Below are positions 15,829 through 53,410 of a DNA stretch of 64,000 nt, one piece after another (positions within the stretch are counted from its first letter, which is position 1; each line of letters opens with the position of its first letter). The stretch lies in assembly GCA_028820935.1 (NCBI GenBank), contig JAPPHZ010000032.1, forward strand, positions 1-64,000, written 5' to 3'. The DNA comes from a bacterium. Its GTDB lineage: Bacteria > Actinomycetota > Acidimicrobiia > Spongiisociales > Spongiisociaceae. Under the pieces are notes generated by a model. That model saw nothing but the letters and a program-made list of their open reading frames with translations. It was not told the DNA's origin and ran no database searches. The translations under genes and the position numbers were made by a program.

Positions 15829-15904
15829 AGTCAGCCAGGCTACCCCGGTACCGGGCGCCGTCGGCCCCAAGACCCGCGAGGTCGCCGCCCGCGACAATCT
15901 CAGG

Positions 15905-16305
15905 ACAGGGCACCGTGGGTGACGCCCTGAACCTCAGGAACAGAACACCAAACATGACGCCCTCCGCCTCAAGAACCCCCACCACCACAAACCTCAGGAA
16001 CAGAACACCATATATGACGCCCTGAACCTGAGGAACAGGGCACCATATCTGACGCCCTCTGCCCAAAGTACGCCCAGGCACCGGAAATCGCGAGAATCCG
16101 GTGCCCCGCACCGGGCCCCTCCCCCGCCACCACCCATCCTGTTGGAGCGTGGTCGGCCATGCCCGGCTGGATGCCGGGTGTCGGCTGTTCGCTCCATAAG
16201 CCTTGATGTTCCCTCGGACCGGCCGGGCCGATCGGACCAGTGCCATCGGCCGGTATAGGTGCTTGGCGATAGGCAACGTATATCGGATCTGTGACGTTTT
16301 CAACC
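15905..16305 (-). repeat. ~400 bp non-coding repeat, copy A (reverse orientation)
   Basis: The reverse complement of this stretch matches 37350-37785 over most of its length, including GTTGAAA-CGTCAC, GGAACAT-CA-GGCTT-ATGGAGCGA, CCCGGCATCC, GGCCGACCACGCTCC and GGGCCCGGTGCGGG. The 3' end contains several copies of a module with TTCCTGAGGTTCAGG and GGGCGTCAT (15905-16055). No reading frame is shared by the two copies, so it is probably not protein-coding. Confidence 0.8.
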
Positions 16306-16555
16306 CTTCTTTGGAAGAACGCGAAAAGTTCTTTCCACGTCCCGGTGCAGCGCCGGGCCGGCGGCCGGTCCTGGCGGACGGCCATCCCCGTCCTTTCGTG
16401 AACGGTCCGGTTGGTAGATTCGGGGCTGATCGCCCGCAGGCTGGAGGCGGCAGGATGAAAGGCTCACCCTTCCCGGGAAGCGGCAACGGGCGCTTCGCCT
16501 CGCCGAACCGATGCCCTACCGTCCTCCGTCCCGTTTACGGCCCTGATCGCTAGCC
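16306..16555. other. Gap upstream of the pseudokinase gene
   Basis: No gene is supported here. GGAAGAAC (16313-16320) and GTTCTTTCC (16329-16337) form an imperfect inverted repeat that could be an operator. The remainder is likely promoter and leader for the pseudokinase-sigma operon. Confidence 0.4.
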
Positions 16556-37349: not shown

Positions 37350-37785
37350 GGTTGAAAGCGTCACACCCTCACGATACGTTGCTGGTTGCCAAGCACCACT
37401 ACCGGCCGAAGGCTCTTGCCGATCGGTTCGGCCGGCCTGGAGGGAACATACAGGGCTTCATGGAGCGAGCCGCCGAAACCCGGCATCCGGTCGGGCACGG
37501 CCGACCACGCTCCGAGCCACGGTGGCGGCGGCGGGGGAGGGCCCGGTGCGGGACGCGTTTGGGCGATTTTCGCGTTCTTGTCGGGCCGAGGAAACCAGGT
37601 CCATCATCCTGAGCGGCGACACCTCCACCCGCAACCCCTAACCCCCCGCCATGCCCCCATCCGCGGTTCCTCAGGATCAGGGCGTCATGGGTGGTGCGGT
37701 GTTCCTCAGGTTCGGGGGCTGCAATGTTCTTGAGGCGTGGGGCGTCATGGGTGGTGCGGTGTTCCTGAGGATCGAGGCGTGCCAC
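37350..37785 (+). repeat. ~400 bp non-coding repeat, copy B (forward orientation)
   Basis: It matches the reverse complement of 15905-16305. Shared blocks include GTTGCCAAGCACC-style sequence, TACCGGCCGA, GAGGGAACATAC, TGGAGCGAGC, CCCGGCATCC, CCGACCACGCTCC and GGGCCCGGTGCGGG. Its right end again has repeated TTCCTCAGG modules with GGGCGTCATGGGTGGTGCGG (37670-37780). It ends 12 bases before the AlkD-like gene. 37251-37349 holds nothing recognised. Confidence 0.8.
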
Positions 37786-53212: not shown

Positions 53213-53282
53213 AAGAGAGATCGTCGGGTTCCTGGGCGGGAACCTGCACGACCAACCCTTCCTCCGAGAGCTGATACGCGAC

Positions 53283-53410
53283 CATGGGTCAGGCGTCCTG
53301 GCTCGTCCTCACCCGGAGGGGGAGGCTTGACAGTTGCGGGACAGCGCCGGACTCACACCGGACTTCGCTGGTCCCCATGGCACCCGGTTGTCTCTCCGGG
53401 CCGAGACGTA
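53283..53410 (-). promoter_or_regulatory. Cobalamin riboswitch
   Basis: The minus strand reads GTCCGGCGCTGTCCCGCAAC (around 53357-53336), the conserved core of B12 aptamers, and later GAGCCAGGACGCCTGACC (about 53305-53288), the B12 box. An upstream GACAACCGGGTGCC stem fits the 5' domain. The aptamer ends about 75 bases before the btuF hairpin. It should turn the btuFCD-cobO operon off when adenosyl- or methylcobalamin is plentiful. The gap 53213-53282 is the linker between them. Confidence 0.9.

Follow-up and report, generated by a model that had tools for sequence, protein, structure and literature searches.

The window, that is, the whole stretch of 64,000 nucleotides analysed here, carries two copies of a repeat in inverted orientation, and DnaA (26268), DnaN, GyrB and GyrA are encoded between them. 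The repeat is one of about 65 copies, in one bacterial genome, of a previously undescribed putative small RNA gene. Both window copies have the layout TTGAAA, 17 bases, TACGTT, then about 180 bases ending in a GC-rich hairpin. Including its promoter, the RNA gene extends over about 16094-16303 in copy 1 and about 37352-37578 in copy 2, the functional strand being minus for the former and plus for the latter; as RNA, both copies point away from dnaA. The inverted orientation was rightly described in the earlier note. The mirror placement around the origin, also proposed there, agrees with the genes found between the copies, and both would run with replication if the origin lies at dnaA. The features are as follows.

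16094..16274, minus: RNA copy 1 (type A); R1 model positions 1-185, 202 bits; covariation
16275..16303, minus: copy 1 promoter, with -35 TTGAAA at 16298-16303, GTCACA at 16290-16295 and -10 TACGTT at 16275-16280; consensus, pattern match at 16274-16295
16316..16327, minus: TTTTCGCGTTCT direct repeat upstream of the copy 1 promoter; pattern
16219..16253, minus: P2 hairpin of copy 1, with the palindromic loop CCGAUCGG at 16228-16235
16098..16136, minus: conserved G-tract region of copy 1, then the terminator hairpin (16098-16114); sequence, and covariation (helix 6)
15896..16075, no strand: palindromic module array (CCTGAGG..CAGGGCGTCA..) past the 3' end of copy 1; a separate repeat
37381..37561, plus: RNA copy 2 (type A); R1 model, 138 bits; site occupied in congeners
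37352..37380, plus: copy 2 promoter, with -35 TTGAAA, GTCACA at 37360-37365 and -10 TACGTT; sequence and pattern
37567..37578, plus: TTTTCGCGTTCT element past the copy 2 terminator; pattern
37620..37773 (ends approximate), no strand: palindromic module array past copy 2; G007 has it at this site, G001, G002 and G005 do not

The similarity over about 400 bases reported in the earlier note is real but does not form one block: it consists of a core of 207 columns at 80% (E=6e-43 within the window) and, separately, about 116 columns of modules at 78%. The TTCCTGAGG-GGGCGTCAT modules in which the copies were said to end likewise exist, but they are not part of the RNA copies, being a separate palindromic repeat placed past the RNA 3' end. 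The lack of a common reading frame, by comparison, extends to the whole of type A. In the 98 of 101 distinct copies where both anchors could be located, the anchor-to-anchor distance modulo 3 is 0, 1 and 2 in 31, 38 and 29 copies, indicating that indels ignore frame. Protein coding was rejected since the frame is not kept between copies; a stop-free frame of at least 50 codons is present in 100 of 101 copies, which at such G+C was taken as no evidence. Elsewhere in the window, a cobalamin riboswitch (Rfam RF00174, 36.1 bits) lies at 53271-53402 on the minus strand.

Copy number, promoter and distribution

With copy 1 as query, blastn returned 61 matching pieces from its own genome. Covariance model R1, built from type A copies, gave 44 matches there at E<=0.01, of which 32 scored at least 94 bits, and a second model, R3, gave 65. 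Their union amounts to 68 loci at E<=0.01, a count in which the matches below about 45 bits mostly rest on model score, few having been read individually. Further loci were reached through two patterns taken from the copies, the promoter (30 matches) and TTTTCGCGTTCT (60 matches), the reversed-pattern control giving 0 in both cases; a model match lies within 250 bases of 27 of the promoter sites and 48 of the TTTTCGCGTTCT sites. One locus, L209 (G000:C27:4757-4960), has four TTTTCGCGTTCT elements in about 200 bases and no model match nearby. A finding of only two copies lacking conserved structure would have counted against the earlier note; the genome instead holds about 65 to 68 loci, and the fold covaries.

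The loci form at least three sub-families. Besides type A, the loci read comprised 14 of type B, nine of type C, of which three have an extra 5' domain, and three odd members. Common to types B and C and the odd members are the P2 hairpin, the G-rich strand, a GAGGGAUCA-like box and the 3' element, and the promoter type is the same in nearly all of them. In type C loci L206, L214 and L223, an extra 5' domain of about 110 bases separates a GATAACCGT-like box from an AAGCACC box. Rfam 15 gave 0 matches at E<=1 for 16 loci (types A, B, C, odd, g2 and f3 kinds), and a scan of the window at gathering scores gave none at either copy.

The promoter elements TTGAA, GTCACA and TACGTT follow in this order at fixed spacing. 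In an ungapped consensus of the upstream region (70 copies fetched, 2 of them mis-anchored, and the 69 complete ones counted), GTCACA is conserved at 90-99% per position and TACGTTG at up to 100%. As regards the binding platform listed in the earlier note, GTCACA could serve as an operator. About half of the copies have TTTTCGCGTTCT ahead of the promoter, and many have it past the terminator. The g30 copies L115-L125 repeatedly show a GTTGTGAAA-like element, a possible activator site, some 30 bases ahead of the -35 box. By their sequences, the copies have the makings of a multicopy (sibling) sRNA family, namely, several paralogous loci between genes, each with its own promoter and terminator. 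Transcription of the predicted genes is very likely, and the sequences give good support to a new putative RNA gene family of extreme copy number.

R1 matched all ten genomes of the genus, with 29 to 50 matches each at E<=0.001, and 13 of 15 in the family. Within the order, 21 of 138 genomes had R3 matches. At least 17 to 24 each (the best 24 being scored) were obtained in the ten genomes of the genus, both g2 genomes and the six of g30, which belongs to another family; G011 had six, and G220 and G267 had one each. Two g4 genomes, 72-78% complete, had 0 R3 matches. Multi-copy relatives are present in two sister genera and one genus of another family, and elsewhere the RNA family is nearly absent. 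A phylum sample of 396 genomes yielded the own genome and two weak singletons only, the latter judged to be chance matches, with no common anatomy when read. Of 47 contig stretches with the exact 3' motif, 43 carry a model match and come from Acidimicrobiia or from MAGs named 'bacterium'; the four without a match are from Bacteroidetes, Bifidobacteriaceae, Streptomyces and Gemmiger. Carriage by phages or viruses was rejected: the pattern scan of viral contigs gave two stretches, with a weak R3 score (35.7 bits) and without promoter, P2 or shared anatomy. The hosts are uncultured Acidimicrobiia and, to judge from isolate names, apparently sponge symbionts; the label RHO, for instance, would fit Rhopaloeides odorabile, which is among the seven sponges of PMC8163846. 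Several MAG contigs start or end in or beside RNA copies (G003 C80 and C1, G004 C181, G001 C77, G008 C44), and the repeat therefore probably breaks short-read assemblies.

The predicted fold and the P2 loop

The predicted fold comprises a closing stem (P1), two hairpins (P2 and P3), the G-rich strand and a terminator hairpin. RNAalifold recovered no more than part of a fold from the type A alignment; a structure was named by hand and tested. On an alignment made without structure (A1, from which L023, L032, L041, L045, L052, L053 and L055 were omitted as near-duplicates, for an extra insertion, or as truncated distant copies), 94.4% of the cells in 38 named pairs are paired, and eight pairs changed on both sides compared with 2.2 in shuffled alignments. 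With 101 distinct type A rows in the R1 structure, 95.2% of the cells are paired and two-sided changes are found in 16 pairs (6.0 in shuffles) and in 74 cells (10.9 in shuffles; 0 of 500). All such shuffle controls overstate significance, because related and homogenised sequences are counted as separate. The changes affect 7 of 7 P2 pairs and 6 of 7 terminator pairs, whereas P1 and P3 vary little. P1 is weak, with one of its nine pairs failing in 17 of 101 rows and a single cell changed on both sides. In the terminator stem, up to 17 of 101 rows fail at one pair, and some copies are without a good U run. In the other types, P2 has two-sided changes in 8 of 9 pairs and 32 cells (13.4 in shuffles) among 26 hand-chosen rows (A2); in all these alignments identical rows were counted once. 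Among 86 distinct rows 85.4% of the P2 cells are paired, with two-sided changes in 9 of 9 pairs and 123 cells (42.0 in shuffles, 0 of 500). The larger alignments (101 and 86 rows) were fitted to models holding the tested pairs; the smaller MAFFT alignments are unfitted and agree with them. The covariation check called for in the earlier note, run on these alignments of copies, thus strongly supports the fold. Among the roles listed there, that of a structured RNA has gained strong support, from covariation, the promoter at fixed spacing, the terminator and the many copies.

The loop of P2 is palindromic. In type A it reads CCGAUCGG in 81 of 101 rows, CCAAUUGG in five and UCGAUCGA in three, with G-U forms in five and non-complementary forms in seven; in the other types it reads GACGUC in 53 of 86 rows, GGCGUC in 17 and GGCGCC in nine. 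The palindrome pairs, which were in neither covariance model, are 97.8% paired in type A, with eight two-sided cells against 0.6 in shuffles, and 98.4% paired in the other types, with ten against 3.3 and 0 occurrences of the non-pairing A..C combination. The loop thus covaries with itself, its letters changing together. Since these letters are too close together for one molecule to satisfy the pairing, the covariation would be explained best by pairing between two molecules. A dimeric protein that binds DNA could also be the reason for keeping such a palindrome, but the presence of G-U forms speaks for a role in RNA rather than DNA. The P2 loop of one copy can therefore apparently pair with its counterpart in another, as a self-complementary apical loop conserved via compensatory change, with a dimer as the predicted product.

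On balance, we lean towards a family of autonomous sRNA genes whose RNAs act in trans as dose-dependent dimers. Each of the approximately 65 loci would be an autonomous small RNA gene of one family, and a shared regulator at the GTCACA element would switch on many of them together. Kissing P2 loops would join the RNAs in trans, within type A by way of the CGAUCG core and among the B/C types by way of the GACGUC core. The dimers would carry the G-rich 3' part, possibly as a G-quadruplex, and at high dose would have an effect in trans; the likeliest modes are that they hold or titrate a protein or that they pair with mRNAs. A broader proposition is tentative, and we would not count it as probable: that the roughly 65 genes are largely interchangeable and use two or more codes for self-recognition (CGAUCG for type A; GACGUC for B/C, varied to GGCGUC and GGCGCC in relatives), so that loci from all over the chromosome give rise to at least two self-assembling RNA populations, which function by dose and assembly rather than by matching a seed to a target.

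Genomic sites and other readings of the repeat

The G-rich 3' part, GGUGGUGG-N-GGGGG-N-GGG, belongs to the best-conserved stretches. Its G columns are conserved at 0.90-1.0 in type A and 0.79-1.0 in the others, the third and fourth interrupters vary and the first T is at 0.96-0.99. P1 can form between GGUG and the CACC close to the 5' end; alternatively, the G tracts could form a quadruplex, competing for the same strand. A folding program that allows quadruplexes placed one in 47 of 48 sequences tried, a figure without a shuffled control. The copies are also homogenised within a genome. When the copies fetched from another genome are ranked by similarity, the positional ortholog comes first in only 5 of 22 comparisons, suggesting conversion between copies. 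Rank was used because the count of comparisons in which the best paralog is closer than the ortholog (19 of 22) is biased, a maximum over 31 being set against one value. Homogenisation is not universal, the ortholog being closer than any paralog for L128/L179, L142/L186 and L144/L189. The conserved G columns with partly variable interrupters, the placed quadruplexes and the gene-conversion-like homogenisation of dispersed copies are consistent with a role in cis, in which transcription of the G-rich DNA would open a quadruplex and start the recombination that homogenises the copies, with gonococcal pilE as precedent (PMC3547852). The pilE G4 sRNA is likewise a short transcript (here a predicted one) with a G-rich element and a tie to gene conversion. 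It is, in the part of that report drawn on here, a single cis-acting locus with its promoter in the G4 sequence, and the transcript downstream can be freely mutated without effect (PMC3547852). In the present family covariation extends over the entire RNA body and the palindrome in the loop is preserved, neither of which a cis role needs, and we consider such a role improbable.

The earlier note also proposed a non-autonomous element. High copy number, patchy occurrence among families, at least one tandem pair (L021) and the position of TTTTCGCGTTCT at either end of copies would suit a selfish mobile RNA element (SINE- or MITE-like) multiplied into intergenic DNA. However, at least 16 of the 32 strong type A copies have both flanks at the same place and in the same orientation in another species (G005 or G008), a lower bound because the site comparison took 18 of 41 G005 copies and 20 of 50 G008 copies (R1 matches). 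The gyrA-side copy (copy 2) is present in all four congeners aligned there (G001, G002, G005 and G007), and matches run through or into the RNA in G006 and G008 too; G003 and G004 break at contig ends, and the G009 alignment stops short. No terminal inverted repeat or target duplication was seen at the RNA copies. Structural constraint is strong. Conservation is 0.90-0.93 inside the RNA versus 0.51-0.66 in flanking intergenic DNA, and purifying selection on the predicted RNA is evident from sequence. With sites conserved between relatives, a mobile element is an unlikely account of the RNA; it may apply to the attached module arrays.

These arrays are a second repeat that favours the 3' side of the predicted RNA genes. 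Their palindromic core unit has 30 matches in the genome at one mismatch or fewer (reversed-pattern control 0). CCTGAGG/CAGGGCGTCA palindromes lie within 350 bases downstream of the RNA in 15 of 32 copies and upstream in 0 of 32, the figure for background stretches being 2 of 263. G000 and G007 have the array at copy 2 and G001, G002 and G005 lack it, the RNA being kept in all four aligned congeners; no target duplication is visible at this polymorphism. Like REP repeats, the arrays are short palindromic extragenic repeats in clusters; unlike REP in the portion of the account cited, and compared by description rather than sequence, they sit after these RNA genes (PMC12306157). The REP325-derived naRNA4 of Escherichia coli was proposed to tether or condense the chromosome (in the same portion of PMC12306157). 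Some 65 dispersed loci with a self-pairing loop, and arrays found solely after the RNA, could be cast in such an architectural role, loop-loop pairing acting together with the arrays beside about half of the loci. We give this a low probability, as the arrays are dispensable at orthologous sites and more than half of the copies have none adjoining.

An array of protein binding sites in DNA, transcribed by accident, would account for the palindromes CCGATCGG and GACGTC and for the GTCACA element. It is quite improbable, given that the G-U intermediates GGCGTC (17 of 86) and TCGATCGG (4 of 101) keep self-complementarity in RNA but not in DNA, and that covariation is seen in the stems of P2 and of the terminator.

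Each of the 32 strong type A copies falls between called ORFs. With the RNA as reference, the neighbouring genes are both co-oriented in 13, convergent in 11, both opposed in six and divergent in two, the last being the two window copies. The neighbours are varied and, as far as recognised by eye, resemble housekeeping genes with no relation to one another. Leading-strand placement was also checked by GC skew (24 of 32 positive), but gene orientation confounds this result, 24 of 32 upstream genes being co-oriented, and it was not relied on. A leader or attenuator acting in cis on the adjoining gene, suggested by the window copies, which both lie upstream of a co-oriented gene and have a terminator, is very improbable and largely refuted by these neighbours, since the divergent arrangement is confined to 2 of 32 copies, an opposing gene lies downstream in 17 of 32, and each copy has its own promoter. 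A riboswitch or attenuator was likewise rejected, as the copies keep no set position ahead of co-oriented genes sharing a function.

Known small RNAs and significance

If real, the family would be, to our knowledge, by far the largest known of dispersed, independently promoted, structured small RNAs in one bacterial genome. The sibling sRNAs that we know of (Qrr, csRNAs, Csr/Rsm RNAs and LhrC) have few copies each, unlike the present family with its approximately 65 homogenised loci in several sub-families. The likeness lies in having several related, partly redundant regulatory copies, as far as the cited parts of the reports go (PMC4211561; PMC4132741). In Bacteroides, the FopS sRNAs are paralogous, independently transcribed RNAs spread over one genome in 12 to 15 copies and conserved among related species (PMC11697453). 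The present family resembles them in its scattered paralogous small RNA genes with their own promoters (read here from the DNA) that are kept in related species. FopS is several times less numerous, and the two are set apart here by description, not by sequence: the sections of that report cited here describe seed pairing near start codons and an RNA-binding protein, and mention no covarying self-complementary loop of the kind found in the present family (PMC11697453).

For hosts that are uncultured Acidimicrobiia, sequence is the main way in. An RNA class with a promoter, a fold and a copy table can be checked against existing metatranscriptomes, and a loop covarying with itself constitutes a testable prediction of RNA self-assembly. 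The combination of conserved sites and homogenised sequence offers a natural experiment on conversion between dispersed copies.
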